DNA from: Meghimatium bilineatum
Lineage: Eukaryota > Mollusca > Gastropoda > Stylommatophora > Philomycidae
Reading direction: 5' to 3'
NCBI GenBank assembly: GCA_034231615.1
Contig: CM067306.1
Span: 31,194,617-31,258,616, forward strand
Length of the DNA: 64,000 nt
In this document: piece by piece, positions 27,016-46,080 of the stretch
Position numbering within the stretch: position 1 is the stretch's first letter
Layout of the letters: each line of letters opens with the position of its first letter
The notes under the pieces: generated by a model
What the model was told of the DNA's origin: nothing
Databases searched by the model: none
The model's input: only the letters and a program-made list of their open reading frames with translations
Position numbers and translations under genes: made by a program

Positions 27016-27174
27016 TAATAATGTTAGACAATGAGTGATTAGACACAAAGAGACTGTTCATGCTCCCATAGAATAATAGAAACGGGAGTGACAAAGGGAG
27101 GGGGAAGATAGTACATCCTCGCTGACAACAACAAACTGACTGGTACGCAGCGTATACACCCTTAGATGGATGAT

Positions 27175-27390: not shown

Positions 27391-27463
27391 TACATTGATG
27401 ATTGAACCAGCAATCTAAGCCTTTATGGGAATGTCCCCACATGCATGATGTTGGTTCCTAATC

Positions 27464-27617: not shown

Positions 27618-27798
27618 GGTTCCCAATCAAGAATGAAGTATTAAACCACAGTTTACAAATAAATGTATTCAAGAATACTAAAATCATAATGAGATTATAA
27701 ACAAATAATGCTTGCTTATAGAGCCTAATCTACATTTAGTTTATTTTTAAACATTACTTTTTGTTATGTCGGAAAAGGTCAAATTATCCACTACTTAC

Positions 27799-28056
27799 TC
27801 GAGTAACTTCCCTTAGGACTGTCTCCTCGAGCAATCTCTTCTTCTCCAACCTCTGACAGCTAATGCAGCAATTCTGGTTCTCACTGTCCGAAAGAACATC
27901 TATATCAGGAGGATCCTCAAACCTGCCAAAATTGGATTCATAAAACTTCTGAAAATAGAATGTCTTGCCATCATCCTCAGAAATGACATTGTCTTCATCT
28001 GGGTTGTCAATGCCACCTTTCATATTCCAGTCTTCAGGAACAACTTTCTGGATGAC
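27799..28056 (-). CDS. DNMT1: DNMT1 exon, BAH1 C-terminal part
   Basis: A 258-bp, 86-codon exon (acceptor TTCTAG, donor CGA|GTAAGT) encodes VIQKVVPEDWNMKGGIDNPD, then DDGKTFYFQKFYESNFGRFE, and later QNCCISCQRLEKKRL. It matches the BAH1-BAH2 connecting region of DNMT1, including the CxxC pair. Both ends are in phase 0 and the frame is open. Confidence 0.94.
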
Positions 28057-28154
28057 CTAGAACAGAAGAATAATGTATTTTTATAGAAAGTAACCAAAAC
28101 AAAGTTTATTCATTGTTTTCACACTCTTCTTGGTTACATGGATGCAGTCCTTTC

Positions 28155-28860
28155 AGCTTGACACATTAGACCTTGGCATAGCTTACAGCTTGGCACATTA
28201 GACCTCAGCATAGCTTACAGCTTGGCACATTAGACCTCGGCATAGCTTACAGTTTGGCACATTAGACCTTAGCATAGTTTACAGTTTGACACATAAGACC
28301 TCGGCATAGCTTACAGTTTGACACATAAGACCTCGGCATAGCTTACAGCTTGGCACATTAGACCTCAGCATAGCTTACTTACAATTTGACACATTAGACC
28401 TCGGCATAGCTTACAGTTTGGCACATTAGACCTTAGCATAGTTTACAGTTTGACACATAAGACCTCGGCATAGCTTACAGTTTGACACATAAGACCTCGG
28501 CATAGCTTACAGCTTGGCACATTAGACCTCAGCATAGCTTACTTACAGTTTGACACATTAGACCTCGGCATAGCTTACAGTTTGGCACATTAGACCTTAG
28601 CATAGTTTACAGTTTGACACATAAGACCTCGGCATAGCTTACAGTTTGACACATAAGACCTCGGCATAGTTTACAGCTTGGCACATTAGACCTCGGCATA
28701 GTTTACAGTTTGACACATAAGACCTCGGCATAGCTTACAGTTTGACACATAAGACCTCGGCATAGCTTACAGTTTGACACATTAGACCTCGGCATAGCTT
28801 ACAGTTTGACACATTAGACCTCGGCATAGCTTACAGCTTGGCACATTAGACCTCAGCATA
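28155..28860 (+). repeat. 32-bp minisatellite, about 22 copies, SINE-B-like unit
   Basis: Unit CATAGCTTACAG(C/T)TTG(G/A)CAC followed by ATTAGACCTCGG or ATAAGACCTCGG, with two irregular CTTACTTACA joints. The unit resembles SINE-B core pieces joined together (TTTACAGC, CTGACACATCCGACTTCAGCAT). It fills the DNMT1 intron next to the clipped BAH1 exon. Confidence 0.9.
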
Positions 28861-28966
28861 CCACTGAAGACGGATGTGTCGCACCATTGGTGCAAATGAC
28901 GACAACGCATTTCCATTTTCTGGACAACATGCTGTTGGAAATTTAGTTGGACCATTGTCCTGCTAC
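28861..28966 (+). mobile_element. SINE-A fragment fused to the BAH1 exon
   Basis: CTGAAGACGGATGTGTCGCA to GGACCATTGTCCTGCTAC, the first two thirds of a SINE-A, stops exactly where coding sequence of the BAH1 exon begins. The other side meets the 32-bp minisatellite. No TSD is seen. Confidence 0.8.
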
Positions 28967-29172
28967 AAAAGCTCATTGTCATCGCACTTGTCGACAAAAA
29001 ATAGCTCCAGAGGATCAGATGCCTCTCCTAAGACAGTTTCACATCCTCTATAGTACCAGTGGACATGTGCCTGCTTGCAGCCACCTTCTTCAAACAGGTA
29101 CTGAACTTGAGCAATGTAGAACGGCTGAGTTGGGTCTGCAGGTGAGATGGAGACATAGTCTCCATTGGTTAT
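28967..29172 (-). CDS. DNMT1: DNMT1 exon, BAH1 domain, 3' end clipped
   Basis: Encodes ITNGDYVSISPADPTQPFYI, then HVHWYYRGCETVLGEASDPL and ELFFVDKCDDNELL, a good BAH1 match. The exon runs directly into a SINE-A fragment, whose GTAGCA provides the only nearby GT donor (after CTTTT). Using that donor leaves phase 2, but the next exon (28,056) must open in phase 0. About eight residues present in vertebrates here (IHSKVK region) are missing. The 3' end of the exon therefore appears to have been replaced. Confidence 0.9.
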
Positions 29173-29399
29173 CTGGTGAAAGACAAGATTACATAAACAT
29201 TTTTTCAAAGGTAACATTCCATATCACTGAGGATTTTAGGGAATTTTACGTTGTGCCCACATTTTTGCCCGTAAATTGCATACATAGGGATGTGGTCAGA
29301 ATCATGCTTGGCGTTTCTTTCCCAGAAAATCTGGTACCCATTTCCTTAGGCTGGGTTGATCTAGAAGTTGTTTGTGGTTTAAAACTATTCCAGTTATAC

Positions 29400-30130
29400 T
29401 AGAAAATCTTGACAATCAAGTTAATACTGTAGTAAAACTGTATGAAAATAGTACTTACAAAACATGTGATGAAGTTTTACTGTACGACGATTAACACACT
29501 TTCATTATCTGAAGCTCACATGAAATAATACACACAAAACAAGCTAAAATCATACAAATAACAATACACATGACATAATCATTGTTATTTATAACAAGTA
29601 ATCATAATGCACAATGCATTTAAAACAGCAGCACGACTTGCCCGGAAGTTACAGCAACAACAACATACATCTGCACTTTTGAGAAGTTAGATTGCCACTG
29701 GTCAACCAACAACAAAGAAACGAAAAGTTTACCAACATGTCAATGATGCTATTAAAACAATGGTTGAACAGGTAAGATCCAGAAGAGCCTATCAACTTCT
29801 TGAAAAACAGCATGTGTTTTGAACATTAATGTTGTGTAGAACTTAATTTCATGTCTATCATTTATGAGACAATTCATATCATTTGAAGATTTTATTATAA
29901 TTATTTACTAGCTATATTGTTCATTAGTGTTTATTACAGTTTGTATGAAATATTTTATATATTACCTTTGTATTTTGTCTTGGGGATATTTTGCCTGGGA
30001 ATATTTATCTTGGAATATTTTGTCTTGGGTATATTTTGTCTGGAATATTTTGTCCTGGGAATATTTTGTCTAGTTACCCATGATTCTGTATCAATACTTG
30101 TATCATACATATCACATTTTCATACGTATT
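29400..30130. other. DNMT1 locus intron, no exon recognised
   Basis: Contains a plus-strand open stretch (about 29,610-29,820: TTKKRKVYQHVNDAIKTMVE) of unknown origin and a loose 15-20 bp repeat of GGGAATATTTTGTCT at about 29,990-30,070. Confidence 0.5.
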
Positions 30131-30134
30131 TGAA

Positions 30135-30330
30135 TCAAAGTAGAAGTTGACTCCTTTTTTCCCCCTCCAGATTGTCCCATAATTCCCAGATTTTTCCCCA
30201 GATTGTTGCATAAAGTGGATCCTCCTGTATTCTGCCATCTTTCATCCTCTTAGATTGTCCCAGCCATCTGAGTCTATGCAAACTGAGCATAGAAAATACT
30301 GCGGTATTGCCTGTTTGTTTCAATGCATGT
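30135..30330 (-). mobile_element. RTE-like LINE fragment
   Basis: The minus strand encodes LHRLRWLGQSKRMKDGRIQE and DPLYATIWG, matching the conserved post-RT signature RW.GH..RM.DGRIPKDLLYGEL. Short and in a DNMT1 intron. Confidence 0.7.
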
Positions 30331-30473
30331 TAGTAATGTTCTCCTGCCACCGAACAAAGAACAGTATTCTGATAGGGATTCCTTCCAGTTTCCATTTTTA
30401 TAACTGGACGCTAAGAATATCATTGGTTATTTTCTTACCATGCTACAGACACGGCTACATTATTTCACATCAT

Positions 30474-30600
30474 GTGAAAACTTCAGATCTCCTCCATATA
30501 GTTTGTGAAAACTTCAGATCTCCTCCATATAGTTTGTGAAAACTTCAGATCTCCTCCATATAGTTTGTGAAAACTTCAGATCTCCTCCATATAGTTTTTG
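30474..30600 (+). repeat. 31-bp tandem repeat, four copies
   Basis: GTGAAAACTTCAGATCTCCT then CCATATAGTTT, almost identical units. Confidence 0.92.
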
Positions 30601-30739
30601 GTATTCTAATGTTTCATTTACTTTCAGATATTCATTTTAGACTAGTTCTTGTGAGAGAACTAGTTTCCATGTTAACAAATCTACAATCATGGTTGGAGAC
30701 AGCTCTCAGCTAGAACATGCAAACATCCCTCCACAGACA

Positions 30740-30744
<5 letters not shown>

Positions 30745-30778
<34 letters not shown>
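30745..30778 (+). repeat. (GA)n microsatellite
   Basis: About 17 GA repeats, 50 bp from the acidic-linker exon. Confidence 0.95.
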
Positions 30779-30830
30779 AAGACATCTCAGATTATATCAC
30801 ATCTACGACATAAATGATTTTCGGACTGAC

Positions 30831-31032
30831 CTCGACGTCATTAATCCTGGCTGCTGTATAATATTTCCTCTTGGTTTCTTCATCAGGCCAAACTACTTTG
30901 GTCTTGACATTTGTAGCAGATTTATGTTTAGTCACTGCCACCAAGTTTTTGCTTTCTTGATCCTCTTTTTCAATTTCTGATTCCTCTTCAACATCATCTT
31001 CTTCTGCCGTCTTAATGGCCATATTTGGACAC
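30831..31032 (-). CDS. DNMT1: DNMT1 exon, end of CXXC and acidic autoinhibitory linker
   Basis: A 202-bp exon (acceptor CATTAG, donor GAG|GTCAGT) encodes CPNMAIKTAEEDDVEEESEI and ends KRKYYTAARINDVE. The CPN completes the last zinc ligand of the CXXC finger. The acidic run corresponds to the CXXC-BAH1 autoinhibitory linker of the family. The end leads into BAH1. Phases match both neighbours. Confidence 0.93.
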
Positions 31033-31073
31033 CTAATGGAAAATACAAAAAATAAAAAGTATGTGAACTTTAA

Positions 31074-32971
31074 CCTTTAGCAAGCCGGATTAAAAAATAC
31101 AAAACCTCTTCCTGCCACCGGATTCTTTTTTGAGAATTTTCATCTTTTCTGGTTGGTGTTACGGAAATGCAATAACTTTTTTGTTATTCGTGATAAAAAA
31201 AAAAAATTGTCCGTGCAAATGCAGAATTGAATACCGCAAATGTATGTATATTTTTAAAATTTTTATGTAACATACCCGGGGTTTGCGCAGGAAGTGAACA
31301 CCTTTTTTGCGCACAAAACCAACAGAAACAACAAGACATGGGTGTTCGGAAAACTCAATAACATTTTTGCTATTAGAGATTTTAAAATAATTTCAACAGA
31401 TTTAAATGCAGAATTGAATACTGCAAATGGGTGTGTAATTGTTTTTTTTTAAATGTATCTTACTCGAGTTTTGCGCAAGAGGTGAAGACATTTTCTCGAA
31501 AAAACAAAATATATGCAAAAAAGACACGGGTGTTCGGAAAACTCAATAACATTTTTGTTATTAGAGCTTTTAAAATAATATCAACACATGTAAATGCAGA
31601 ATTGAATACTACAAATGGGTGTGTAATTGGTTTTTTTTTATGTATCCTACCCGAGGTTTGCGCAAGAGGCGAAGACAATTTTTATTTTAAAATTACATAA
31701 AAACAAACAACACAAATGACTTACCCACTGGCCATGCAGCTCTGGAGTAAACCTACAGGCTGTGCTGCTCTCCTACATGCTGTGCAGCTCAGAGGAACAA
31801 TCAATTTTGAAATGTACCAATGTGTGGTATCTATGGAAGCAGGGGTAGGGGCACAGAGTGACCTGACATGCTGCGCACACGTACTGAGTCTGGTGACGCT
31901 TCTTTGACCGATCTGAACAGACTACACAGTCAGGAAGCGCAGGCTTGCCACTGGACAACCGTTTAGGATTTATAGCAATATGGTGTGTTGGTCCTATTGC
32001 CAATCATGCTTTCATCGATACTGATTTCTTTGGAGAGGCCATAATACTGTTGGAACAGAGGAATAAGTTTGTCAACAAACCCCTGTATCTTGAACGCCTT
32101 GCTGTGACCCGGTTGCCCTCGTGCAACAGCTGTTGTGTTGTCTACAAGGTGCAGGAATGAAAGAATAGCTAAAAATCTATTCCTACTCATGATATTCCTG
32201 AACCCAGGCATCTTGATGAGACCATCATTAGACCAATACAATTCAAAGGAGGAACGTTTGGTCAGTCCCATCAAGAGCACCAAAAGCTGTCATCTCATCA
32301 GCTGTGACTTCCTTCCACATCTTCACACGAGATGCATTGCCGGCGGCCTGTCCCTTCGAATCACTAACCTGCTTAGCGTAACGATTAGTTTCAGTTACCA
32401 ACATGTTCACAATATCATCTGTAATAAACAGACGAAACACGTCTACCGCACTAATGTCATCAGCTAAGCCTATAGGTCCAACAACTTCATCGAAGTTGCT
32501 AAGCCAATCATGGCTATACCCCGAAGGAACACTAGAATTTCCAACAATTTCTTCTTCCAATATGTCGTATCCGGCCACGCTGCGAACTGAATCAGTATCA
32601 CTATTATCTCTATCTAACAACACATCATCTATTGGAGCGATATCTGCATCTGTTAACGGCATACTTACCTCCTCATCCGAATCGGGATCCATTACGAACG
32701 CAAAATAAATTGTATCCATTGTAGGCCTAGGTTGCTGTCGGAAAATGCGATGGAACAACGTCTTGACGCTACTGTAAATTATAACAAATGGACAGGGCGG
32801 ACGTGAACTGGTACCGGCTTCGATTGCGCATGCCCTGAACTACATACATGCTGTGATTTGGCTGTTGTAAGCCTATTTGGCACAATGTCTCATTGAGTGA
32901 GTGCACTTGACAACGGTAAACAGCCGCCATCTTTTTTTTGTCAAACAGATTTAACAACGGCGCGGTGAAGG
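31074..32971 (-). mobile_element. piggyBac-type DNA transposon, internally deleted, TTAA-flanked
   Basis: Flanked by TTAA at 31,070-31,073 and 32,972-32,975. The inner ends start CCTTTAGCAAGCCGG and CCTTCACCGCGCCG. Between them are remnants of a piggyBac transposase plus, near the 31.1 kb end, three imperfect direct repeats of about 180 bp (about 31,250-31,680) containing GTGTTCGGAAAACTCAATAA and TTTGCGCA. About 1.9 kb, non-autonomous, in the intron between the CXXC and acidic-linker exons of DNMT1. Confidence 0.65.
31773..32758 (-). pseudogene. piggyBac transposase remnant
   Basis: The N-terminal 171 codons (32,758-32,243) carry an acidic region (DPDSDEEVSM, LLDRDNSDTDS) and FITDDIVNMLVTETNRYAKQ. 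After a frameshift comes GLTKRSSFELYWSNDGLIKM, then FLAILSFLHLVDN and LSKEISIDESM, the piggyBac core up to the first catalytic Asp. The sequence then jumps to a cysteine-rich C-terminus (CVVCSDRSKKRHQTQYVCAA, CLCPYPCFHRYHT-like). The other catalytic aspartates are deleted, so it is inactive. Confidence 0.8.
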
Positions 32972-33227
32972 TTAAGGTCAAGGCAAACGTGAACAAGTGA
33001 TAAAGTTTGTTAATGTTTTTTTTTTCCTTTATATTCCTAACAATCAATATTCTTCTTGTACATGTCGCGGCGTCTGCTATGGCAAAGCGGCCTTTATTTT
33101 CACAGTCCATAGAAAACCTCCCTGCACTCTATCACAGGAAAACATGTAGTAAGGAAAGTTTTTTTATATTCCTAACAATATTTTATTTTATTTTCAAAAG
33201 TATCTTCTGCATTAATCTTCTTTTGCA

Positions 33228-33475
33228 TTAATTCTCCTGCAGATTAGCAGGATGTAGTCCTGAGAACATAATGTGGTGTCATGGTTTACAGCTTTTCTGC
33301 GATATATGTGCCTTTTGATCTGACACATCCGATTTCAGCATGGCTTCTGGTTCACTGACTCTACGTAGGATGAGACACGCACACTCCACCCCAAAACCTT
33401 CTTAGTCACCACTTACAACATTCATGTAGGTACAGTGTTGCTATTCTTTTCCTCCTTCCGGAACCCAATAACACA
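33228..33475 (-). mobile_element. SINE-B
   Basis: TTCTCCTGCAGATTAGCAGG, GGTTTACAGCTTTTCTGCGA, CTTTTGATCTGACACATCCG and TAGTCACCACTTACAAC in SINE-B order. The head (TATTCTTTTCCTCC) is diverged. Confidence 0.82.
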
Positions 33476-33868
33476 AGGACAACTCAAAATTAAATTTAAT
33501 ACCATTCTTCCTCTCTCTGTGCAAGAGAGGATATCTGGTGGCATAGTGGTTAAGCCATTTGCAGTAAGTGCCATGGGTTTGATATCCTGCGACATCTTCA
33601 TTGCAAGTGAATTTAGGGGGGGGGGGGGGGGAAGAGAGAATCTCTGGACATTATCGCTTGAAGGTATGAGGTTATGTGTTATATGTGGTACTCTCAGCAG
33701 CTGGCATGCTGGTGCCGAGATGGGCGGAGTATATATGAGGTAACCGTAGCCATTTTTTCTTACCAACATAATCATCTATTCTGTTTCCAAGAGTATAGCT
33801 AACATCGTTTTTCTCTATCCAACTACCCAATGGTATCATTTAGACTTTTGTTTCTCACTTAAGGCAAG

Positions 33869-34430
33869 TATACGAGGGGTGGTTGAAAAGTTGTGCACTT
33901 TACTAAGTAATCGTAAAGAAGGGCAGACTTGCTGTGTATCATTCTAAAGACACACTACTAGTTGACAATTCCCGCACGTGCATTGCTCGAATGCTGCGGT
34001 GCGTGAAAAGAGAAATTAGCGGAAAACTAGTTCAGTTGTGTATGAAACTGTGTCACGGATAAAACAGAGCCTTGTTGTGTAATCTTCTTCAGCGTACATT
34101 CTCAAACTCCTGCTGAATTCTCTTGTAGCAGGACATGTCCTCTAAATTTCCAGCAGAATGTAGTCCAGTGAATGGAAATACGTTGTATCGCCGTTTTATT
34201 TGCGCCAATGGCCCGATACATCCGTCTTCGGCGGATTGTGTAATCAAATTCCTGCACTTGTAGCAGGGTAAATCTGCACAACAAATTCATGATGAGATAG
34301 TGTTTCTCATTTATAAGGATGTCACTGTAAAGCGTTGAAAAAAATCACTTTGAAACGCTAGCGGTCAAGATGAGCCAAGGAGCGGCAGGCTGTCCATTGC
34401 AGATCCATCAATCTATCTCTTTGCAACAGA
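33869..34430 (+). mobile_element. mariner-type transposon 5' remnant, split by a SINE-A
   Basis: Begins TACGAGGGGTGGTTGAAAAG, a mariner-like inverted-repeat end. It includes IKFLHL and QQIHDEI (near 34,245-34,300) and, near 34,365, DEPRSGRLSIAD, all from the helix-turn-helix half of mariner transposase. Stops and frameshifts abound. A SINE-A (34,085-34,235) sits inside it with a 10-bp TSD. It ends about 35-60 bp before the CXXC exon. Confidence 0.75.
34085..34235 (-). mobile_element. SINE-A with perfect 10-bp TSD, nested in mariner
   Basis: 151 bp. TTGTGTAATC at 34,075-34,084 and 34,236-34,245. The target is mariner transposase sequence, so the SINE is the younger. Confidence 0.9.
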
Positions 34431-34464
34431 ATTATTTTAAATAGTCACAAATAAACACATTTAC

Positions 34465-34562
34465 CTGCGTTCCTTACAAGCTTGTTTGGCTCGGCCTGAG
34501 CCCCCAAACTTGGTCATGTCACGGCATGCAGCACATTTACCACAATCTGGTTGTTGACATAC
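34465..34562 (-). CDS. DNMT1: DNMT1 exon, CXXC zinc finger core
   Basis: A 98-bp exon (acceptor TTGTAG, donor AG|GTAAAT) encodes [20 protein letters not shown] and then [13 protein letters not shown]. With CGICE from the previous exon it gives the CXXC domain's CGxCxxC...CxxC cysteine arrangement and the KFGG DNA-contact loop. In DNMT1 this domain binds unmethylated CpG and helps restrict the enzyme to hemimethylated sites. It is the best-conserved exon in the window and has no defect. Confidence 0.96.
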
Positions 34563-34794
34563 CTACAATTAAATTTAAATAAGTCGTACAAGTCAATCTG
34601 TTATTAAGTTGAGGTTTGAGTATGTTGATTATCATCATTGGACACGGAACATATCGATAGGTGCTGAGATCTCCGTTTCAGTAAATCTCTCAGGGTATAA
34701 TGACTGATAGTTTAGTCTTCAATATCTACCATCCGATAAGCTGAAATACCCAATCTGTTATTTAAAAGCATAAACACAATGAAATGTTTATGGC

Positions 34795-34855
34795 CAAATT
34801 GTTGGTTACAAAATGGCCAAAATTGTTGGTTACAAAATGGCCAAAATTGTGCATA
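34795..34855 (+). repeat. 23-bp tandem repeat, 2.5 copies
   Basis: AAATTGTTGGTTACAAAATG plus GCC, repeated. Confidence 0.8.
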
Positions 34856-35049
34856 AACTAATACAAACATGCTGAATTTTTTAGCTTGACGGATTTTATG
34901 ATCATGACATTTTATGATTTTATGACATGCTGAATTATTTAGTTTGAATTTTAAAGAATGCTACCGTTTTATAAATTTAATATTACCCCTCTCAAATTAT
35001 CAATATTCATTAATTTCACTATTGTCAATCCCCAGGTGGTGGAGTTGTC

Positions 35050-35585
35050 GTAGCTTCCATAGACCACAATCTAGGATACCTCACATGTCACAGACTGTCT
35101 GCGAGCATGCCTGTATACTCAGTGACTCCATGAACATGATTATGAAAGTTCAGGAGGGGTACGTTCGAGAACAGTGGCTGGATGCAGTGAAGATTCCTGT
35201 GTGCGTACAGTGACTTTTATTTTTGTGCTGGGACACGCGGGAGTCCGGGGTAATGAGAAAGCAGATAGGTTGGCCTCCCACGCTGCTTCTACGGCTGTTG
35301 GTGGAGTGATGGATCGGGCAGACATTTTGAATGCCATATGGGAAAATGCACGAACAAATGACTGTACAAGTGACGATGACTCTTGTTCCATGATTAGAAT
35401 AAAGGAACTTGGTTTGAAATGTGGGGTCGCTAGAAAGGAGAATTTCCATGGGTGAAAAAGAATGATGGTCAACCAACGACATACTGGGACTGTCAGTCAA
35501 TGTGTAATGGCGGATACACTCAAGGAAAGATCTGAGCACCTAGGGACTTGTCCGGAGTGCAATGACGATGATTCAATAACTAACA
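35050..35585 (+). mobile_element. LINE family 2, 3' fragment abutting the DNMT1 minisatellite
   Basis: Encodes CILSDSMNMIMKVQEGYVRE, then after a frameshift near 35,200 VTFIFVLGHAGVRGNEKADR, then CPECNDDDSITN. It is homologous to the RNase H end of the copy at 15,440-15,928. Its 3' terminus (GATTCAATAACTAAC) is followed at once by the first minisatellite unit. Confidence 0.85.
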
Positions 35586-38399
35586 TATGCCACAATCAAG
35601 CCTACCTCACATATGCCACAATCAAGCCTACCTCACATATGCCACAATCAAGCCTACCTCACATATGCCACAATCAAGCCTACCTCACATATGCCACAAT
35701 CAAGCCTACCTCACATATGCCACAATCAAGCCTACCTCACATATGCCACAATCAAGCCTACCTCACATATGCCACAATCAAGCCTACCTCACATATACAA
35801 CAATCAAGCCTACCTCACATATGCCACAATCATAGCCTATCTTACATATGCCAAATAAAGCCTACCTCACATATGCCACAATCAAGCCTACCTCACATAT
35901 ACCACAATCAAGCCTACCTTACATATGCCACAATCATAGCCTACCTTACATATGCCAAATAAAGCCTACCTCACATATGCCACAATTAAACCTACCTCAC
36001 ATATGCCACAATCATAGCCTACCTCACATATGCCAAATAAAGCCTACCTCACATATGCCACAATTAAACCTACCTCACATATGCCACAATCAAGCCTACC
36101 TCACATATGCCACAATCAAGCCTACCTCACATATACCACAATCAAGCACCACAATCAAGTCTACCTCACATATGCCACAAAGCCTACCTCACATATACAA
36201 CAATCAAGCCTACCTCACATATGCCACAATCATAGCATACCTTACATATACCACAATCATAGACTACCTTACATATGCCAAATAAAGCCTACCTCACATA
36301 TGCCACAATTAAACCTACCTCACATATGCCACAATCAAGCCTACCTCACATATGCCACAATCAAGCCTACCTCACATATGCCACAATCAAGCCTACCTCA
36401 CATATACCACAATCAAGCACCACAATCAAGTCTACCTCACATATGCCACAAAGCCTACCTCACATATGCCACAATCAAGCCTACCTCACATATACCACAA
36501 TCAAGCCTACCTCACATATGCCAAATAAAGCCTACCTCACATATGCCACAATCTAGCCTACCTCACATATGCCACAAAGCCTACCTCACATATGCCACAA
36601 TCATAGCCTACCTCACATATGCCACCAAGCCTACCTCACATATGCCACAATCAAGCCTACCTCACATATGCCAAATAAAGCCTACCTCACATATGCCAAA
36701 TAAATCCTACCTCACATATACCACAATCAAGCCTACCTCACATATGCCAAATAAAGCCTACCTTACATATGCCACCAAGCCTACCTCACATATGCCAAAT
36801 AAAGCCTACCTTACATATGCCACAATCAAGCCTACCTCACATATACAACAATCAAGCCTACCTCACATATGCCACAATCAAGCCTACCTCACATATGCAA
36901 CAATCAAGCCTACCTCACATATGCCACAATCATAGCCTATCTTACATATGCCAAATAAAGCCTACCTCACATATGCCACAATCAAGCCTACTTCACATAT
37001 ACCACAATCAAGCCTACCTTACATATGCCAAATAAAGCCTACCTCACATATGCCACAATTAAACCTACCTCACACATGCCACAATTAAACCTACCTCACA
37101 TATGCCACAATCATAGCCTACCTTACATATGCCAAATAAAGCCTACCTCACATATGCCACAATTAAACCTACCTCACATATGCCACAATCAAGCCTACCT
37201 CACATATGCCACAATCAAGCCTACCTCACATATGCCACAATAAAGCCTACCTCACATATACCACAATCAAGCACCACAATCAAGTCTACCTCACATATGC
37301 CACAAAGCCTACCTCACATATACAACAATCAAGCCTACCTTACATATACCACAATCATAGACTACCTTACATATGCCAAATAAAGCCTACCTCACATATG
37401 CCACAATTAAACCTACCTCACATATGCCACAATCAAGCCTACCTCACATATGCCACAATCAAGCCTACCTCACATATGCCACAATCAAGCCTACCTCACA
37501 TATACCACAATCAAGCACCACAATCAAGTCTACCTCACATATGCCACAAAGCCTACCTCACATATACAACAATCAAGCCTACCTCACATATGCCACAATC
37601 ATAGCCTACCTTACATATGCCAAATAAAGCCTACCTCACATATGCCACAATCTAGCCTACCTCACATATGCCACAAAGCCTACCTCACATATGCCACAAT
37701 CATAGCCTACCTCACATATGCCACCAAGCCTACCTCACATATGCCACAATCAAGCCTACCTCACATATGCCAAATAAAGCCTACCTTACATATGCCACCA
37801 AGCCTACCTCACATATACCACAATCAAGCCTACCTCACATATGCCAAATAAAGCCTACCTTACATATGCCACCAAGCCTACCTCACATATGCCAAATAAA
37901 GCCTACCTTACATATGCCACAATCAAGCCTACCTCACATATGCCACAATCAAGCCTACCTCACATATGCCAAATAAAGCCTACCTCACATATGCCAAATA
38001 AAGCCTACCTCACATATGCCACAATCAAGCCTACCTTACATATGCCAAATAAAGCCTACCTCACATATGCCACAATCAAGCCTACCTCACATATGCCAAA
38101 TAAAGCCTACCTCACATATGCCACAATCAAGCATACCTTACATATGCCAAATAAAGCCTACCTCACATATGCCACAATCAAGCCTACCTCACATATGCCA
38201 AATAAAGCCTACCTTACATATGCCACCAAGCCTACCTCACATATGCCAAATAAAGCCTACCTTACATATGCCACCAAGCCTACCTCACATATGCCAAATA
38301 AAGCCTACCTTACATATGCCAAATAAAGCCTACCTCACATATGCCACAATCAAGCCTACCTCACATATGCCAAATAAAGCCTACCTCACATATGCCACA
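35586..38399. repeat. 2.8 kb minisatellite built from a DNMT1 exon/intron junction
   Basis: Tandem units of about 23-27 bp (mostly 25-26), roughly 110 copies estimated from the length. In gene orientation each unit reads TGTGGCATATGTGAG then GTAGGC/GTAGGT and a short AT-rich spacer (TTGATTG, TTTATT, TTTAATTG or TTGG). The first part equals the last 15 coding bases of the exon at 38,385-38,550 (CGICE) and the second its 5' splice donor. Higher-order blocks of about 244 bp recur (for example 36,030/36,275 and 37,129/37,373). Most units lack stop codons in some frames, so reading frames up to 301 codons exist, but they are repeat artefacts. Confidence 0.95.
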
Positions 38400-38550
38400 A
38401 CGCTGTCTCTTAGTCTTGGAAGTCTCATCAATCTGACCTTGGAAAATGGAGTCAAAGATTCTTCGGACAAGAGGAGTCACAGTGGCTTTTGTGTCCTTGG
38501 GTTTTTCTTTTTTAGCCTTTACTCTGGCCACCTCTTTTCTCAACTGCCTC
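38385..38550 (-). CDS. DNMT1: DNMT1 exon ending at the start of the CXXC finger
   Basis: A 166-bp exon (acceptor TTCTCAG, donor GAG|GTAGGC) encodes RQLRKEVARVKAKKEKPKD, then TPLVRRIFDSIFQGQI, and ends KTKRQRCGICE. The last residues are the first zinc-binding cysteines of the CXXC domain. The exon's last 15 bases and the donor are themselves one unit of the minisatellite that fills the adjoining intron, so the true donor is followed by about a hundred near copies of itself. The donor is weak (GTAGGC rather than GTRAGT). Confidence 0.93.
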
Positions 38551-38647
38551 CTGAGAACGAGATTGACTCCATTACATAAATATTTATATTAGAAAAATTT
38601 CAGGAAGGACATAAAACAGAAAATGAAGTCTTTATATTGTAAAAGTT

Positions 38648-38930
38648 CTTCTTCTGCGTTCGTTCTCAAACATCTACTGCAGATTAGCAGGATGTAGTCC
38701 GCAGAACGGAATGCGTTGTGTCATGGTTTACAGCATTGCTGCGATATCTGCGCCTTTTGGCCTGACACATCCGACTTCAGCATGGTTTTGGGTTACTGTA
38801 CTGACCATATATGGGATGGGACAGCCAACCCCATCCCATAACCTCCTTAGTCGCCTTTTACGACATGCGTGGAAGGTAAACAGTGTTGCTATTCTTTGTT
38901 CCCCTATCGGACCACGGCAACACAAGGGTG
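38648..38930 (-). mobile_element. SINE-B, full length, 11-bp TSD
   Basis: 283 bp. TTGTAAAAGTT at 38,637-38,647 and 38,931-38,941 fixes the ends. On the minus strand it runs from CACCCTTGTGTTGCCGTGG to GAACGAACGCAGAAGAAG. Reference copy for family B. Confidence 0.9.
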
Positions 38931-39115
38931 TTGTAAAAGTTAAAATTAATGCCATTCCACAACACCTAAACCAAATTTAATTTAAAATGATAAGATTTTC
39001 TTTCTTAAGTACATGCATATTTAGTATCTCACTGACTCTCGAGACACATTTACACACACGCCTCGAGTGAGTGTGCTATATAAACATTTATCAGTTATAA
39101 ATGCTGCTAGTGAAA

Positions 39116-39250
39116 TAATATAACGCTGCCAAATTCGTACATGCTGAGCAACTGAAGCAAATAAAATTATGACATAACGCATCTGTTCTCTGGACATCCT
39201 TCTGGAAATCTAGTCTCACCATTTTCCTGCTAAAAGGGAGATCCAGCGGG
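39116..39250 (+). mobile_element. SINE-A, 3'-truncated and diverged
   Basis: CAAATAAAATTATGACATAA, CTCTGGACATCCTTCTGG and GGGAGATCCAGCGGG are recognisable. The GAA tail is missing. Confidence 0.7.
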
Positions 39251-39589
39251 GATCCCGTAGCCGTAACCTCCAATAACAGTTACCATGTTGTTTTGACATG
39301 CCGACGTTGTGCTTGGACTAGGACGGGCACAGTGTAGGTGAGCAGAACAAAGAAACCTGTCGCAAGGGCCTGAGTTGTGCCCTGATGTCGACGTCAGTTT
39401 CGGTGGCATAAGACTCAAAACACCATCAAATCGGATAGCTGCTGGAATAGAGGGAGTGCACTTATGGGAATGCCCCACGTGCTGTGAGGCCAGTTTCTAA
39501 TCAAGAAGATCCAGTAGGGAGTTAGAAAGCGAACAAACAAATAATACAACACCAGCTGACTGCGAAGATATTTATTGTGCTTCACACAC

Positions 39590-39771
39590 CTTTTACCCAA
39601 AGTTACGCCAGCCAGTTTGATTAGCGCCCTCATGCAAGGTGTAGTAATGAGCAGAGACTCATCCTCCTCTGCTGCATCATCAAAACTCTGGACTTGGTCC
39701 ACCACAAACTGGGCATGTCGGAGCACGCTATCTTCTGATTAACTTGTCTGCCCAGCTGGAGGTACGGTAGT
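39590..39771 (-). CDS. DNMT1: DNMT1 exon, RFTS-CXXC linker, with in-frame stop
   Basis: A 182-bp exon (acceptor CTCAG, donor AG|GTGTGT) reads [10 protein letters not shown], a stop, then [19 protein letters not shown] and [17 protein letters not shown]. It matches vertebrate DNMT1 strongly on both sides of the stop. The TAA lies at 39,739-39,741. The segment around it is about two residues shorter than the vertebrate sequence (LNLNRFTEDS region), so an indel plus the stop has damaged it. No alternative acceptor that avoids the stop keeps the frame. Confidence 0.9.
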
Positions 39772-39923
39772 CTGAGGAACATCAAGTTATGCCATGTGTA
39801 AATATAGAAACTAGAATATTTATAGAAATATAAGGTATTTTAAAATCTGCTCAAATTTTGACACAATTTTTCTATCAAAAATTCTCTTGAAGTGCATGTT
39901 TAAAACATTGTTTAGAACCACAT

Positions 39924-40078
39924 CCCGCTGAAGATGGATGTGTCGGGCCATTGCCGCAAATAAAACGGCACCACAGTACATTTCCATTCTCTGGACTACA
40001 TACGGCTGGAAATCTAGTAAGACAATAATCCTGCTACAAGAGAGATGCAGCGGGAGTTTGAGAATAAACGCTGAAGAA
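39924..40078 (+). mobile_element. SINE-A with 9-bp TSD
   Basis: 155 bp. GAACCACAT at 39,915-39,923 and 40,079-40,087. Confidence 0.9.
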
Positions 40079-40089
40079 GAACCACATGA

Positions 40090-40970
40090 CTTTCATTAAT
40101 TGTATCAATTTGTCTAGATCTAAATACACATGTAAATGTTCATAAGTTTTAAAATGTTCAAATGTAAGCATTAATGCAATTTTGGAAGTGACTGCTTGCT
40201 TCTTGCAATCACTGTTGATAATTTGATTACTGGCACTTTCCGTAACTTCATAATGCACAATCATTGGGTTCGTGCCATTTCTAACCTCACTGATTTGGTA
40301 CACAAAAAAAGCCAAAATGACACTTTTATGACTGTGGAGATGAAAGACAAGGGGGTATGGAAGGTACACAAGTGGAACAGAAGGTATACAAGGAAGATGA
40401 AAGGTACACGGAGGGATGAAACCCACTGTGTATGTGTGTCAGCGCACACATGTGAAAGGCACACAGGGCAGACGAAGGGGAGGGGGTTGATGATGATAAT
40501 GTTCCTCCTTTGCAAGCAAAGATGAGCATGGTATGAAAAACAAAAAATGTGGTGTGAACAAAAAGAACAAAAAATAATTTGTGATTGTCTAATTTGTTTT
40601 TGGTTTGTGAGTTTGCAGATGTCCGATTTGTGCTAGGAAAGTTCTATTGCAGTTTGTGCAAGAGGTTCCAGAGTAGGACAGATCTAAGATTTTTCCGTTT
40701 GCTTCTGTCTCTCCTAAATTGCCTGCAGTGTTCATTCTTTTTTCAAAATTAGTGATGTCAGCAGTGATCCGGGTGTGCCAAGCTGATCGATAAAGGGCTG
40801 TAGTCTCCCTGGAGCTAGGATCGATGCTGCAGTTCTAAACAGGGGGGAATGAAAGGGACACAGAGGAATGAAAAATACACAAGAAGGATACCTGGGGGCA
40901 CAAGAAGTTTTATGTGAATACGAATACCTGACAGAAAAGAACTGTTATTTTTCCAATAATTAATTTATTC
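40090..40970. other. DNMT1 locus intron, no exon recognised
   Basis: Unique-looking sequence with repeated GGTACACA / AGGATGAAAGG phrases at 40,350-40,460 and 40,850-40,900. No protein match. Confidence 0.5.
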
Positions 40971-40977
40971 ATAATAC

Positions 40978-41129
40978 CTGAATTTTATTCAATAAATCCT
41001 CGTAACTAGCATCTGGATTGTTGATGAGAAATTCAATAACAATCTTGGACATATGAACTTTGACCCTCATCTGCTCAATGAAAGGACTGTAAGCCTCGCT
41101 GGGTTGCATCAATATGTACTCGGCAAAAC
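40978..41129 (-). CDS. DNMT1: DNMT1 exon, RFTS C-terminal half
   Basis: A 152-bp exon (acceptor CTGCAG, donor CAG|GTATTA) encodes FAEYILMQPSEAYSPFMEQM and then VHMSKIVIEFL with SYEDLLNKIQ. This closely matches the RFTS segment that begins SFAEYILM in vertebrate DNMT1, where RFTS autoinhibits the catalytic pocket and binds ubiquitinated H3. The RFTS core that normally precedes it (GLIEKN, INEWWI and GGEKALIGF in vertebrates) was not found in the window. Confidence 0.92.
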
Positions 41130-41294
41130 CTGCAGTCAGAAGAAAAAAAATTATTTGTAACTGTAATCAAACCAGAGGTCGTAGTAACTGGATTACCAGA
41201 ACCACAATTTTTTTTATGGTTGTAAAGCTTTTATATAACCAAATTGGACTAACATCTAAGGTTGAAAGAATGTACCATAAGAGGTACATTTTAC

Positions 41295-41850
41295 TTAACC
41301 TTTAGGACTCTACAGGCGCAATTTTGCAACAAAAGTGTGCCCCACATCTTGCCTATTGGCTCAATATTGCCCAGCGACTTAACAGATAGTGCCCGAATCG
41401 CGAGTACGGAACTTCACGAAGTAAAGCTTATATGACGTAGAAATTCCCGCCACACGAAGCTAGGAATACGTCAGTCTAAAGATCAAATTCCTTTACACAT
41501 TACCATTGTAAGAAGGGGAAAGCCAGTTGGTTTTGTAACACATTTCTGGAGCGACTTTAGCTATTTTCGGTGCAGTATTTTACTATCAAATTGAGTACCG
41601 CCTGCCATGGGTAAGTAATCGCGACTACATGTTCTAATTGTTTTTTGTGTTTAATATGTTGTTATTTGTTAAGAATGTATGTGTATTCGTTCAAAAACAC
41701 AAAAATAATATGTATCAGGGGTGCCACGTGTGTGCATAGACAATAATTACGCTGTGTGTCGGCCAAGACCTAGTGTTGACCGGACGGACATTATGAGATT
41801 TCTTCACGTTTTATTCGTTTTTTAAGGCCATATTATATTAGTTTGTATAT
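41295..41850 (+). mobile_element. TTAA-associated DNA-transposon 5' region, copy 1
   Basis: Starts TTAACCTTTAGGACTC and shares about 500 bp with 46,081-46,690: GTAAAGCTTATATGA, TTCCCGCCACACGAAGCTAG, CAAATTCCTTTACACATTAC and the CACGTTT(T/G)ATT(C/A)GT end. It includes CTGCCATGG|GTAAGT at 41,604-41,616, which looks like an initiator followed by a splice donor. The CCTTTAG start matches the piggyBac remnant at 31,074. Family assignment is inference. Confidence 0.5.
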
Positions 41851-42019
41851 GAAACAATATATATACAACAAGTATAGGTATTAGGGAGGATTTTATCAAT
41901 TTTTCCACACATTGCTCAAGTATTAGGGTCGTTAAGAAGTTATATGTGCGATTTTGAAAATGGCGTTTTGCAATTTCCCCCCGAATTTTCAACTTCACAT
42001 CATGCTCACCACTGTCATC

Positions 42020-42405
42020 TTCTTCTTCTTCTGCGTTTCTACTCAAACTCCTGCAGATTAGCAGGATGTAGTCCAGAGAACGGAATGCATTGTGTCATTT
42101 CCCGCTACAGACATTACAATAGATCTATTATGTGTATGAGAGACAAAATTAGCTATAAACATCAATCTTCGGGATTCGTTTTTAAATTACTAGAGGAAAT
42201 ATATCACATCATGGTTTAAAGCTACACTATCCATGCATTTTTGGCCCAACACATCAAACTTCCGCATGACATTTTTGGTCAAAGTAAACTTATTGAATGA
42301 GGAAGTCAGTCCATACCAAAACATCCTTAGTCACCACTTACACTATGCATGGTAAGTGGCAGTGTTATTTCTTTGATCCCTTTTTCAGACCTGGCAATAC
42401 ACATC
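42020..42405 (-). mobile_element. SINE-B with an internal insertion
   Basis: Family-B sequence is broken at about 42,098-42,208 by unrelated DNA between TTGTGTCAT and ATCATGGTTTA. The repeated TCAT at the joints may be a short duplication. Confidence 0.75.
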
Positions 42406-42429
42406 ATGATCATATCCATAACCCTTCAG

Positions 42430-42700
42430 GGTCGTAGAGTTGAGACTCTTGAAATGTCAACAGAAAAATTTTGCCATGCCTCTCTGTTCTTTGTTTAGGT
42501 GAAGAATCTTAATCTTGTCCAGTCTTTAATATTATCAATCCATACTTTCCTCTAACCACCTCTTCTTCATCAACGATCAGCTGTTCCCTGCAAGATAATT
42601 TTGGAAAGGAAATCATGCCTCATGGCCAAACCACACAAGTTTTGTGATGTCTCACCACTGCCGTGAGATGTTCCTGTTGGCGTCAAATACACATAGGCCA
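42430..42700 (-). mobile_element. RTE/jockey-like LINE C-terminal fragment
   Basis: The minus strand carries FGHEA and MRHDFLSKIILQGTADR, then WTRLRFF and REAWQNFSVDISRVSTLRP, a well-known LINE C-terminal signature (RHDSLSKTILQG...WR.LS). Frameshifts are present. It sits in the intron where RFTS-core exons are expected. Confidence 0.65.
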
Positions 42701-42714
42701 ACAGAAATATAATA

Positions 42715-42820
42715 GCAAGTGAACTGCAGATTAGTAGCATGTACTCTGGAGAAAAGAATGTTGTCATGGTTTACAGATTGACTGCACCTTTCGGCCTGAC
42801 ACATCCAACTTCAGCATATA
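42715..42820 (-). mobile_element. SINE-B, tail-proximal half
   Basis: CTGCAGATTAGTAGCATGTA, TCATGGTTTACAGATTGA and CACCTTTCGGCCTGACACAT, then unrelated DNA. Confidence 0.7.
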
Positions 42821-42904
42821 CCAAGTAAAAAAATTAGAGACAGTTTTCAGGAATTCTAGGGATGCAATTATTAATTAAGAGAGAAAATGAAAAATTCACT
42901 GCAT

Positions 42905-43022
42905 GGTACATGCCGAAATCGGATGTGCAGGACCTTCCAAGGTGCAAATAACTCAGTTATGCCGTAAATTAGTACTACAACGTACTTCATGCTTCCCGGC
43001 GGAAATCACATGCACTTTTGTG
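42905..43022 (+). mobile_element. Repeat C fragment (tail-proximal part)
   Basis: Reads CATGCCGAAATCGGATGTGC then AAGGTGCAAATAACTCAG and TCCCGGCGGAAATCACATGC, matching the complement of 60,835-60,930. Confidence 0.6.
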
Positions 43023-43076
43023 TTGGTTACCAGAGTTCAAAAGAAGAAGAAGACTGTATGTCACAACTACAAAATT

Positions 43077-43332
43077 TTTTCTGAGCTTGTTCTCAAACTC
43101 CTGCATATAACAGGCTACAGTTCAGAGGATGGAATGAGTTGTACCATAGTTTGCAGCTTTACTACAATATCTGTGCCTGTCAGTCCAGCACATCCAACTT
43201 CAGTATAACATTGGATCGTTTATGAAACAGTAAATTCAACTCACAAAATCCTCTTAGTCACTTCCTACAACATGCATGGCAGGCCTTAGTGTTGGTACTC
43301 TCTGTTCCCCTTTTGAGTCCGGCAACACTTGC
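43077..43332 (-). mobile_element. SINE-B
   Basis: TTGTTCTCAAACTCCTGCAT, GTTTGCAGCTTTACTACAAT, TAGTCACTTCCTACAACATG and GTTCCCCTTTTGAGTCCGGC in order. Confidence 0.8.
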
Positions 43333-43738
43333 CCGACTACAAATAATCATTTTAGCTTAAGTAAGGCCTGCCGTCTAATGAAATCAATGAGATCAAGCAA
43401 TTACTAGAGTACACCCATAACTGAGCCAAATGCAAAGCGTGTTACGAAACCATGGCCTTTGGAAAAGTAAGAAATTGGTCGCTCACGGTCACTTACAAAG
43501 GACACTGTTCTGTAGCATTCTTTACATTCAGATCCGTCTCTCGTTTACACAAAAGTCGCTTCTAGTGGACAGCAGGCCTAATGTGTGCACAATGGAAAAA
43601 AAAATACTTTTATGGACGTGACTATTACTTTCTAACCTTGCTACAATGATCCTTCAAGGAACGATGCAAGGAAAAAAAGGAAGAGACAAATTTTTCTTAA
43701 TTGACCACAGATACAAACAAATGAGCAACACAACTTAC

Positions 43739-43856
43739 AGCATCTTCAGAATCACCAGGAAATAACTTCAGTTCCTGATCGTCCATGTACTTCAAACATT
43801 CATTACATCTTTCTGGGAGAGCTTTCGTATGACTTAAAGTCAACACTGTGGAATTT
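43739..43856 (-). CDS. DNMT1: DNMT1 exon, start of RFTS domain
   Basis: A 118-bp exon encodes NSTVLTLSHTKALPERCNEC and then LKYMDDQELKLFPGDSEDA. It matches the start of the DNMT1 RFTS (replication foci targeting) domain, where vertebrates have a C-x-x-C followed by QYLDDPDLKY. It ends in phase 0 (GCT|GTAAGT). The next recognisable exon (41,129) needs a phase-1 partner, so at least one RFTS exon is missing between them. Confidence 0.9.
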
Positions 43857-43917
43857 CTGTAAATAAGAAACATTTCATAACATGAAGTAAAAGATTACAA
43901 GTTGGAGGGGAAACAAA

Positions 43918-44118
43918 CAGATGATGATGATGAAATAATACCTTTAGCTGCGAGCATATACCTCTTGACACATGATGATGATGAAATAATACCTATAGCT
44001 GCGAGCAGATAGCTCTTGACACAGGATGATGATGAAATAATACCTTTAGCTGCGAGCATATACCTCTTGATACATGATGATGATGAAATAATACCTTTAG
44101 CTGCAAGCAGATAGCTCG
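43918..44118 (+). repeat. 53-60 bp tandem repeat, four copies
   Basis: GATGATGATGAAATAATACC, TTTAGCTGCGAGCA and TATACCTCTTGAC, four times. DNMT1 intron. Confidence 0.9.
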
Positions 44119-44428
44119 ACATTCCACTGATAAATTGACAGATTTTCTGACAGAAGTACAGGTCTTCCTCAACTAAGGTGATACCGGTGAGTATAAGCAT
44201 GGTTGTGTTAAGGGGGCTTATAGGTTTATGTTTTTCCCAAAAGGAAGCATTTATTAATTATTCGAGAAAAATAATACTATTCACGACATACACGTTATCT
44301 ACTAGGGATTTGTTGTTGCATGGTGGTTGTTCTGGTATGTCACTGGCGAGACCAGGCACTCTACATGCAGTAACATAATCTATGCCGAGTCATATGTCAG
44401 ATTGTAATTAATTTAAAAATCAGCTTAC

Positions 44429-44590
44429 CTTTCTTGTTGGTTGATATTATTTTCATCTTCTAGTTTGGCCCTCTTGGGACTGTTTTCCTTATCATCGCTC
44501 TCATCAGGACACTTGTCACATTCAGTCATCTCCTTGGCTTGAACATCATTAGCAACTATTTCTTGACCTTTCTTTGGTTCCAACTTGGGC
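44429..44590 (-). CDS. DNMT1: DNMT1 exon, charged linker before RFTS
   Basis: A 162-bp exon (acceptor AAGCAG, donor AG|GTAAGC) encodes a lysine- and glutamate-rich linker containing ECDKCPDESDD and SPKRAKLEDE, the latter a possible nuclear-localisation patch. No fold is expected. Its place between the PIP-box and CNECLKYMDD exons and its splice phases (joining through AGG and AGA Arg codons) support the call. Confidence 0.8.
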
Positions 44591-44594
44591 CTGC

Positions 44595-45560
44595 TTGGAA
44601 ATTATGAATGTTTCCGTAGAAAGTAGTTACAAACAAGTAATATCAATAATAAAATATCAATGCAAAAGCAGTCACGCTAAATTACATCTGGACAGAGCAA
44701 GCATATTATTTATCAAGTGAGATATTCTTCTCAGAACGATGTGTTCATCGTGGATACTCTGAGCGCTTCTCTATCCCGGGCAAGCAGGACTGCATTGGCC
44801 AGAGACGTGCATACATTCTTCGATGTCGCTGGTCCATCGTCTTCTTGGACCATGCACAGAGAAAGACAAATCAATGTAAAGAACATTAAATGTAGATAAG
44901 GGTCGAATCTTGAACAACATCACAACATGAAAGCTGAAGTTTATTTTGGTTATATAAAGAGACGTAATAGCATGAGAAAACTAGTAATGGAAGGCATAGT
45001 TGCTGGTAACAAGGCAAAGATAACAACGGACGAGAGACATTTCAGAGTCTTTAGAGGTGCCCATGGCGGCATCATGTCAACTTGCTCAGAATTGTGAGGA
45101 AGTTTAGTGCTCATAAGTAATACTGCATTTTGGGAAGAATGTAACTCAATTAATGCTTTTCATAATATATCCCAATCATTTATATTTTCATATAACCTTA
45201 ATTTCTTGCTGCCTCAATGGAGCCCTGATATACAGGAACAGACAAGATCTGGAACAGACCCGTGAGCTTTCTAAAAACAAGTTGTTTTAAAAACCTCTTC
45301 TATTTATGCTGTCCATATTTTCATGGGTGCCTCTCTAACTTTAAGCCCACTGTATTTAAACAGCGTCACTTTTCGGATGGTATTAGTAACTAGTAGCATG
45401 TCAGAACCATTTGACCTGCTGTTTTCTGATGAAGTTCCGCACTCGTGTTATACCCACCTGCCGTCTGATTGTCTCATTACTGATTATATCTATTTTTATG
45501 ACCTTGTGAAAAAAAACTACTGAAAGCAAACAAAAGGGTAAAGTACACCCTGATCAAGTG
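44595..45560. other. DNMT1 locus intron, nothing recognised
   Basis: No SINE, LINE or exon signature identified. Short frames of 60-66 codons have no recognisable domain. Confidence 0.5.
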
Positions 45561-45564
45561 AAAA

Positions 45565-45755
45565 TATTTGATAGAATAGGAACCACCAAATCAATCAATC
45601 AAAGAATAGGAACCACCAAATCAATCAAACAAACAGAATAGGAACCACCAAATCAATCAATCAAACACAGAATAGGAACCACCAAATCAATCAATCAAAC
45701 ACAGAATAGGAACCACAAAATCAATCAATCATAGAATAGGAACCACAAAATCAAA
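45565..45755 (+). repeat. 32-38 bp tandem repeat, six copies
   Basis: GAATAGGAACCACCAAATCA then (ATCA)n and AACACA, variable in the ATCA number. DNMT1 intron. Confidence 0.9.
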
Positions 45756-45938
45756 CAGTGATTGTTCCACGTAAACTGCTATTTTTTTTTTTTTTACCAA
45801 TATATATATTTACTTACCAATTGGTGCACAATTTTACTGCAGTTTTCTATTTACTTGAATTTTTTTAATCAAACTAATGCAAACATGTTTTGGCAGTAAA
45901 GAAAGTCAATAATAATCATGTACGTTCAAGTAACTCAC

Positions 45939-46020
45939 CTTCCAGAAAACAATGACATAATTGTGGGCTGTTTGTCATCAGGAGTCTTAGAGGCGAGACG
46001 ACCTGAAGTCCGAGCAGGTG
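45939..46020 (-). CDS. DNMT1: DNMT1 exon with PIP-box-like motif
   Basis: An 82-bp exon (acceptor CTACAG, donor AG|GTGAGT) encodes PARTSGRLASKTPDDK followed by QPTIMSFFSG. The Q-x-x-I-x-x-F-F pattern fits a PCNA-interacting PIP box. In known DNMT1 proteins a QTTITSHF motif at this relative position recruits the enzyme to replication forks. The frame joins both neighbours. Confidence 0.85.
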
Positions 46021-46080
46021 CTGTAGAGTATAGATAAAACATATACATATTTTCTGATGCCACTAAGCAATTACACCTAA

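Follow-up and report, generated by a model that had tools for sequence, protein, structure and literature searches.

A minisatellite that appears to have been founded by the 5' splice junction of the CXXC exon of DNMT1 in Meghimatium bilineatum, and its occurrence in a candidate working gene and in dispersed truncated copies

The stretch analyzed here, referred to as the window, spans 64,000 nucleotides of contig CM067306.1 from the gastropod Meghimatium bilineatum. It carries exons of DNMT1 on its minus strand, and the intron that separates the two halves of the CXXC finger holds a long minisatellite that resembles the end of the preceding exon together with its splice donor. This raises the question of how an exon-intron border could give rise to such an array, whether the array resides in a working gene and what tens of repeated donors would mean for the splicing of its transcripts. 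The exons belong to what we take to be the RFTS, linker, CXXC, BAH1 and BAH2 regions and were located by tblastn with a human DNMT1 query. The CXXC exon also matches solved DNMT1 chains in the PDB (E 0.00013), in which RCGVCE is aligned to the RCGICE of the window, and it joins in register the exon at 34,562. The exons that bear on the argument are as follows, a slash marking the exon-intron border:

39589..39774, minus strand: DNMT1 exon upstream of the CXXC exon, with a TAA nonsense codon at 39,739-39,741
38385..38550, minus strand: DNMT1 exon, first half of the CXXC finger (sequence, tblastn, PDB DNMT1 chains); the final 15 bases, TGTGGCATATGTGAG (CGICE), recur in the repeat unit as its exonic part
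38383..38384, minus strand: true 5' splice donor GT (GAG/GTAGGC), giving an in-frame join to the next exon
34465..34562, minus strand: DNMT1 exon, second half of the CXXC finger (tblastn), starting at 34,562
21901..22023, minus strand: the final DNMT1 exon of this copy, which opens the catalytic domain (LRTLDVFAGCG); its donor has C at base -1, where the DNMT1 gene of contig 10 has G

The array and the elements at its far end occupy most of the intron between the two CXXC exons:

35583..38384, minus strand: minisatellite of 23-27-bp units, with four of 39 bp; 106 donor-like GTA sites, including the true donor
about 35105..35582, plus strand: 5'-truncated non-LTR (LINE) fragment with a TAAC tail, antisense to DNMT1, in the last unit of the array
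35050..35092, minus strand: final, degenerate unit (TGTGACATGTGAGGTATCCTAGATTGTGG), lying beyond the LINE and holding the second copy of a target-site duplication of about 11 bp

TRF recovered one array at 35,583-38,400 with a period of 26, 110.5 copies and 84% matches. This agrees with the first-pass annotation of a minisatellite of about 110 units at the exon donor, and the array starts exactly at GAG/GTAGGC. In gene orientation (minus strand), the sequence runs through CGTTGTGGCATATGTGAG, GTAGGCTTTATTTGGCATATGTGAG and GTAGGC in direct succession at the donor of the exon at 38,550-38,385. Each unit is made up of the last 15 coding bases of the CXXC exon, the donor and intron bases. Among the 109 segments into which the window array was cut, the commonest unit (29 segments) was 26 bp long; others were 23, 25, 27 or 39 bp, and the last segment was a 13-bp remnant. 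The same annotation had proposed that every unit contains TGTGGCATATGTGAG followed by GTAGGC or GTAGGT. As worded this is an overstatement, because the array holds 53 exact copies of the 15-base exon end, 49 of them directly followed by GTAGG[CT]; what does hold is that a donor-like GTA site follows the motif in 106 of the 109 segments, true donor counted. The sequence AGGT is present 111 times in the window array and 55 times in a second array on contig 10 that is described below. The block-wise repetition of unit types suggests that the array grew by slippage or unequal exchange. A search of the window against Rfam returned no match at the gathering threshold.

Among the six DNMT1 donors tested, such a likeness to the sequence downstream was confined to the CXXC exon. 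The 21-mer at its donor (15 coding and 6 intron bases) has a copy matching at 21 of 21 positions within the next 3 kb; the five other DNMT1 donors that were put to the same 3-kb test gave best matches of 12-13 of 21. To place the array in its genomic context, we searched the window's assembly (1.61 Gb, 32 contigs) and read 14 loci across the exon and the array, two of which (L010 and L011) are near-identical tandem copies. In each of the 14, the exon donor marks the beginning of the array, and the intron sequence beyond the array is the same. Donor-like sites number from 7, in the shortest arrays, to 106 per array among these 14 loci of a single assembly.

The 15-mer has 1,622 matches in the genome (869+753) and its reversed control none, an abundance that at first suggested that an independent satellite, dispersed in the genome, had come to lie at the exon border through short homology and that its match to the exon was incidental. 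The first 100 of the 1,622 matches, which were those listed, all on contig 1, fall in eight loci, and 99 of them lie in seven loci that bear the DNMT1 exon, the array and the LINE tail. Furthermore, the exon bases in question code for a conserved motif. We therefore rejected the independent satellite, a very improbable origin given that the listed 15-mers sit at DNMT1-exon loci, with an isolated single match (L016) as the lone exception. Since the coding bases of the unit are the conserved DNMT1 motif (RCGVCE/RCGICE), the exon is the likely source of the array. The motif, the anchoring of all 14 arrays and the 99 of 100 listed 15-mers found beside the exon together argue strongly that the 5' splice junction of the exon was the founder, as the first-pass annotation had supposed when it singled out the real junction as the founder unit.

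The course of events that we favor would begin with a tandem duplication of the 5' junction of the CXXC exon, the founder being about 26 bp long and comprising the 15 coding bases, the donor and the first intron bases. The duplicated junction would then have grown into a minisatellite inside a working DNMT1 gene. The intron sequence used as an anchor beyond the array is itself a dispersed repeat, with matches at 184 places, and the founding event could therefore have involved the end of a transposable element.

The LINE fragment at the far end and the unit beyond it had been missed in the first-pass annotation and call for a separate explanation. Its 3' end directly adjoins the array in the window and some non-LTR elements end in short tandem repeats, so that the array could be read as the tail of the LINE. 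However, the fragment has a tail of its own made of TAAC repeats, as does the LINE at 12.7-15.9 kb to which it is 68% identical in nucleotide sequence. Comparison with the empty site also places a target-site duplication of about 11 bp (TGTGGCATGTG and TGTGACATGTG) on both sides of the LINE, inside the last unit of the array. The unit beyond the LINE (35,050-35,092) is degenerate and has a local score of 41, versus 26 for the next best outside the array among 6,248 pieces. Moreover, the LINE is present in nine of the 14 loci read; the other five, namely contig 10 (L039) and L042-L045, have the array and an empty site. These empty sites refute an origin from the LINE tail, to which we assign a negligible probability. 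Elsewhere in the window, a minisatellite of 26 copies of 29 bp (51557-52319) lies in an open reading frame whose end resembles, in our reading, a LINE C-terminus.

The DNMT1 of the window is not the working gene that had been supposed at the outset. The TAA at 39,739-39,741 is in frame, and the same position is read through in the contig 10 gene and in two further copies, designated A (contig 1) and B. A search of the window and of the 30 kb on its left revealed no DNMT1 exon beyond LRTLDVFAGCG, and homology to the contig 10 DNMT1 stops at about 21,708, after GAAAGATCTTGAT, at a fusion junction that is the same in copies A and B. The nonsense codon, the missing catalytic exons and the fusion rule out the window copy as a working DNMT1; judged by its sequence, it is a truncated pseudogene copy. 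Two other minisatellites were noted along this copy. One has 22 copies of 32 bp (28150-28860) and lies in the intron between two BAH1-region exons; the other has 2.5 copies of 37 bp (21760-21851) and lies next to the first catalytic exon and near the fusion junction; in copy B its region is a much longer self-similar stretch, of about 2.6 kb. Across the window (1-64000) the observed/expected ratio is 0.48 for CpG, 1.32 for TpG and 1.01 for GpC, and the depletion of CpG relative to GpC fits a methylating genome.

A candidate working gene was identified on contig 10. Four candidates for the Pfam methyltransferase domain (PF00145) were scored, and the domain was placed at position 38,917,521 of contig 10 and at a site on contig 8. 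The contig 8 match (L038), with 30% identity over 59 residues, represents a more distant methyltransferase. The contig 10 site (L037) has two DNMT1 catalytic exons, including PPCQGFSGMNRFNS, that are free of stops. From the four candidates scored, further catalytic copies of DNMT1 are unlikely. A CXXC exon lies at position 38,934,229 of contig 10, 16.7 kb upstream of the catalytic exons and on the same strand. The linker exon (L040) is also open. The reading of this gene covers seven exons or exon pieces (L037, L039, L040 and L041), and those read are open, which is consistent with the contig 10 DNMT1 being the working gene. It carries the array: 52 units extend from the exon donor (L039), end in GTATGCTAGATTGTGGCATATGAAAACTACGAC and are free of the LINE, and they contain 51 donor-like sites, that is, the true donor and 50 decoys. 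The first-pass annotation had counted an intact DNMT1 elsewhere whose CXXC intron lacks the repeat as evidence against a junction origin; as far as the gene was read, the opposite was found, and the array is present in the gene that has catalytic exons. The same intron of contig 10 has a second tandem array, of 22-bp units (AAATGAAAATTCAATAAACATC; about 1930-2330 of L039, reverse complement), with no counterpart detected by TRF in the window's intron.

The other copies of the exon are numerous. Allowing up to two mismatches, a 31-mer of the CXXC exon upstream of the repeat has 63 matches, spread over 20 contigs (reversed control, 0); the fusion junction, with up to three mismatches allowed, has 104 genome-wide (control, 0). 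For at least 51 of the 63 exon copies, one of the listed junctions follows on the same strand at a distance of 6.1-35.9 kb downstream, and 54 of the 100 junctions listed, which fall on 25 contigs, have a listed exon upstream. Among the 12 exon copies without a junction among those listed is, as expected, the contig 10 gene. The distance from the exon to the intron anchor spans the array plus any insertion such as the LINE; as taken from 61 of the 100 anchor matches listed (of 184), it ranges from 221 to 8,613 bp in at least 51 of the 63 exon copies, with 12 copies having no listed anchor. Some dispersed copies carry coding changes in the CXXC exon: its end reads CGICQ in L012 and CGICK in both L014 and L015, the last codon having changed, and in L013 the exon is frameshifted.

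Sequence divergence sets the contig 10 gene apart in the intron. In the 110 bp just past the array, contig 10 differs by 11-13% (87-89% identity) from the window and L009-L015, which differ from one another by 0-3%. Over the exon and the 60 bp before it, contig 10 is 97.2-98.6% identical to the dispersed copies and these are 97.6-100% identical among themselves; contig 10 is thus no more distant in the exon than some dispersed copies are from each other, and the separation rests on the 110 bp of intron. The shared junctions and the empty sites strongly suggest an order in which the array came first. Later, a DNMT1 segment would have been duplicated; a fusion to unrelated DNA would have cost it all that follows the first catalytic exon, and the truncated, fused segment would have spread to many places. 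In one sublineage the LINE probably entered the last unit, and further spread followed. The four dispersed copies that lack the LINE (L042-L045) all have a listed fusion junction downstream. In one region of contig 1 (53080001-53140000; L024-L029) we also observed a tandem duplication with a period of 34,113 bp, 99.98% identical over the 25.9 kb that can be compared. Each of its copies contains a truncated DNMT1, and the duplication is either very recent or an assembly artefact.

The unit of dispersal extends well beyond DNMT1. Its features in the window are:

21700..21752, minus strand: fusion junction at about 21,708, the end of homology to the contig 10 DNMT1
16201..16542, minus strand: terminal exon of an aspartyl protease (PF00026, E 3.8e-12), in the part of the segment that is not DNMT1
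321..64000, no strand assigned: section of a large dispersed segment (at least about 75 kb) that runs past the right end of the window and carries the truncated DNMT1

Blocks of copy A align in the same order with the window and its flanking sequence, over 73.5 kb of contig 9 and 67.5 kb of contig 1, and the blocks outside tandem arrays are mostly 91-98% identical. Homology of the window to other copies stops at 321. A 31-mer at this position occurs at 57 places and lies 30.9-41.0 kb from 12 of the 63 exon copies; another, located 11 kb past the right end of the window, occurs at 43 places and lies 36.6-47.3 kb from 11 of the 63, in the expected orientation. Both flank 31-mers are found in two copies, the window (a span of about 75 kb) and one on contig 15 (about 82 kb). 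Position 321 was rejected as the left end of the segment because eight of ten places compared continue leftward and are alike there, the window and a more distant member (L053) being the two that differ. A long inverted copy of this supposed left end was searched for by BLAST, and none was found in the stretches compared. Also common to the window and copy A is the aspartyl protease exon, which shares its strand with the truncated DNMT1 and lies downstream of it.

The block collinearity of contigs 9 and 1 over 73.5 kb of contig 9, together with the wide scatter of junctions and exon copies over the contigs, could indicate a giant mobile element that captured the DNMT1 and protease exons, as opposed to a plain segmental duplication. 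We regard this as possible, although somewhat doubtful. No termini were found for such an element, and the break at 321 is not common to the eight of ten places mentioned above. Ten open reading frames from the window and neighboring stretches were scanned against Pfam and yielded two reverse transcriptases, two pieces of a piggyBac-like transposase, one aspartyl protease and five products without a family; no virus gene was among them. These reverse transcriptases are of the LINE type, and the piggyBac-like remnant is missing from other copies, both of which argue against a mobile element as well. The remnant (PF13843; 31073-32965) is situated in an insertion that is absent from L009, L012 and L015.

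We then examined in silico what the decoy donors would do to the message. Joining the CXXC exon to the next exon gives a stop-free product via the true donor only; every decoy leads to a stop, in 50 of 50 cases in contig 10 and in 106 of 106 in the window (105 in the array and one beyond the LINE). Pairing with the 5' end of U1, a sequence assumed to be conserved in this host, was predicted as duplex energies of naked RNA. By this measure 46 of the contig 10 decoys equal the true donor, three are stronger and one is weaker; in the window, 74 are equal, seven stronger and 25 weaker, 15 of these by 0.1 kcal/mol. Counting the true donors, 97 of 107 sites in the window have a predicted duplex of -9.2 kcal/mol or stronger, as do 50 of 51 in contig 10 at -9.3 or stronger. 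The spliceosome at the working gene would thus meet one true donor and about 50 decoys, most with equal predicted U1 pairing. From this model, the exon-proximal true donor would be chosen in most cases, while a small share of transcripts would use one of the first decoys or omit the next exon. As every decoy gives a stop, the mis-spliced mRNAs would probably be lost by nonsense-mediated decay, and the array may slightly lower the output of DNMT1.

The retention of U1 pairing in most units of both arrays might instead reflect function, with U1 sites guarding a long pre-mRNA from premature polyadenylation or unproductive splicing setting the dose of DNMT1. However, recombination can homogenize the units, so that their conservation can be explained without selection; moreover, dead copies too have retained donor-like sites, and the exon-to-anchor distance varies widely. 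Hence, we consider a selected function quite improbable. Also unlikely is a bolder proposal in which the array is a self-made splicing brake of variable length on the maintenance methyltransferase, its decoys diverting a share of DNMT1 transcripts to decay and its length tuning genome methylation; in this proposal a large mobile segment, perhaps itself a target of methylation, has carried a catalytically dead RFTS-CXXC-BAH fragment with the array to about a hundred places. The reading that we consider highly probable is that of a junction-born array in a working DNMT1, with dead truncated copies dispersed through the genome, decoys that would mostly be bypassed and leaked mRNA that would be decayed.

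The first-pass annotation knew of no description of such an array, yet there is a direct precedent, the VNTR in intron 18 of human ABCA7 (PMC5954066). Its 25-bp units begin with the bases of the exon 18 donor, the donor of the second unit is used at 2+-1%, out of frame and unaffected by VNTR length, and skipping of exon 19 increases with VNTR length (PMC5954066). Like ABCA7 as described there, the DNMT1 array is in an intron of a protein-coding gene, on contig 10 a candidate working one, and has a unit of about 25 bp, a start at the canonical donor (in 14 of 14 loci), a donor in each unit (repeated in 106 of 109 window segments and at 51 sites in contig 10) and decoys that shift the frame, here by prediction. 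Unlike the ABCA7 unit, which is described as starting from GT, the DNMT1 unit also takes in 15 coding bases, and its array has been copied to dozens of places with a truncated gene. Furthermore, decoy use and exon 19 skipping were measured in ABCA7, whereas decoy use and exon skipping in DNMT1 are predictions. The retention of one unit in ABCA7 is reported as independent of VNTR length, and this precedent therefore lends no support to a length effect through decoys.

A second known system is the polyubiquitin gene UBC, whose tandemly arrayed AGGT sites are dual-specific and can serve as donor or acceptor (PMC10809524). The DNMT1 array is likewise tandem with AGGT in most units. In contrast to the UBC monomers, which are given there as 228-nt, coding and removed in frame, the DNMT1 units are short (23-39 bp), intronic and frame-breaking; with units of 23, 25, 26, 27 and 39 bp and a stop after every decoy, unit removal is not predicted to keep the reading frame. 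The DNMT1 units are also pyrimidine-poor before AG, which makes their use as acceptors unlikely. The presence of extra DNMT1 copies in one genome recalls the duplications reported in marsupials (PMC5886458). Unlike those, M. bilineatum has 62 further exon copies with introns on 20 contigs, and in at least 51 of these a truncation junction precedes the bulk of the catalytic domain. Neither an array in DNMT1 that includes coding bases nor a truncated DNMT1 dispersed in this way was found in searches of open PMC papers.

An array born from a splice donor is thus of a known kind; what is new is the DNMT1 host, the coding bases in the unit and the dispersal within a segment of about 75 kb or more. 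With ABCA7 as the first, it adds another clear case in which a gene's own splice donor gave birth to a minisatellite, and the many array lengths within one genome allow comparison. Its location in DNMT1 bears on what consequence, if any, tens of identical decoy donors have for a key enzyme. The amplification of a DNMT1 segment that lacks most of the catalytic exons was unexpected, and indicates that a host gene fragment of tens of kb can turn into a dispersed repeat.
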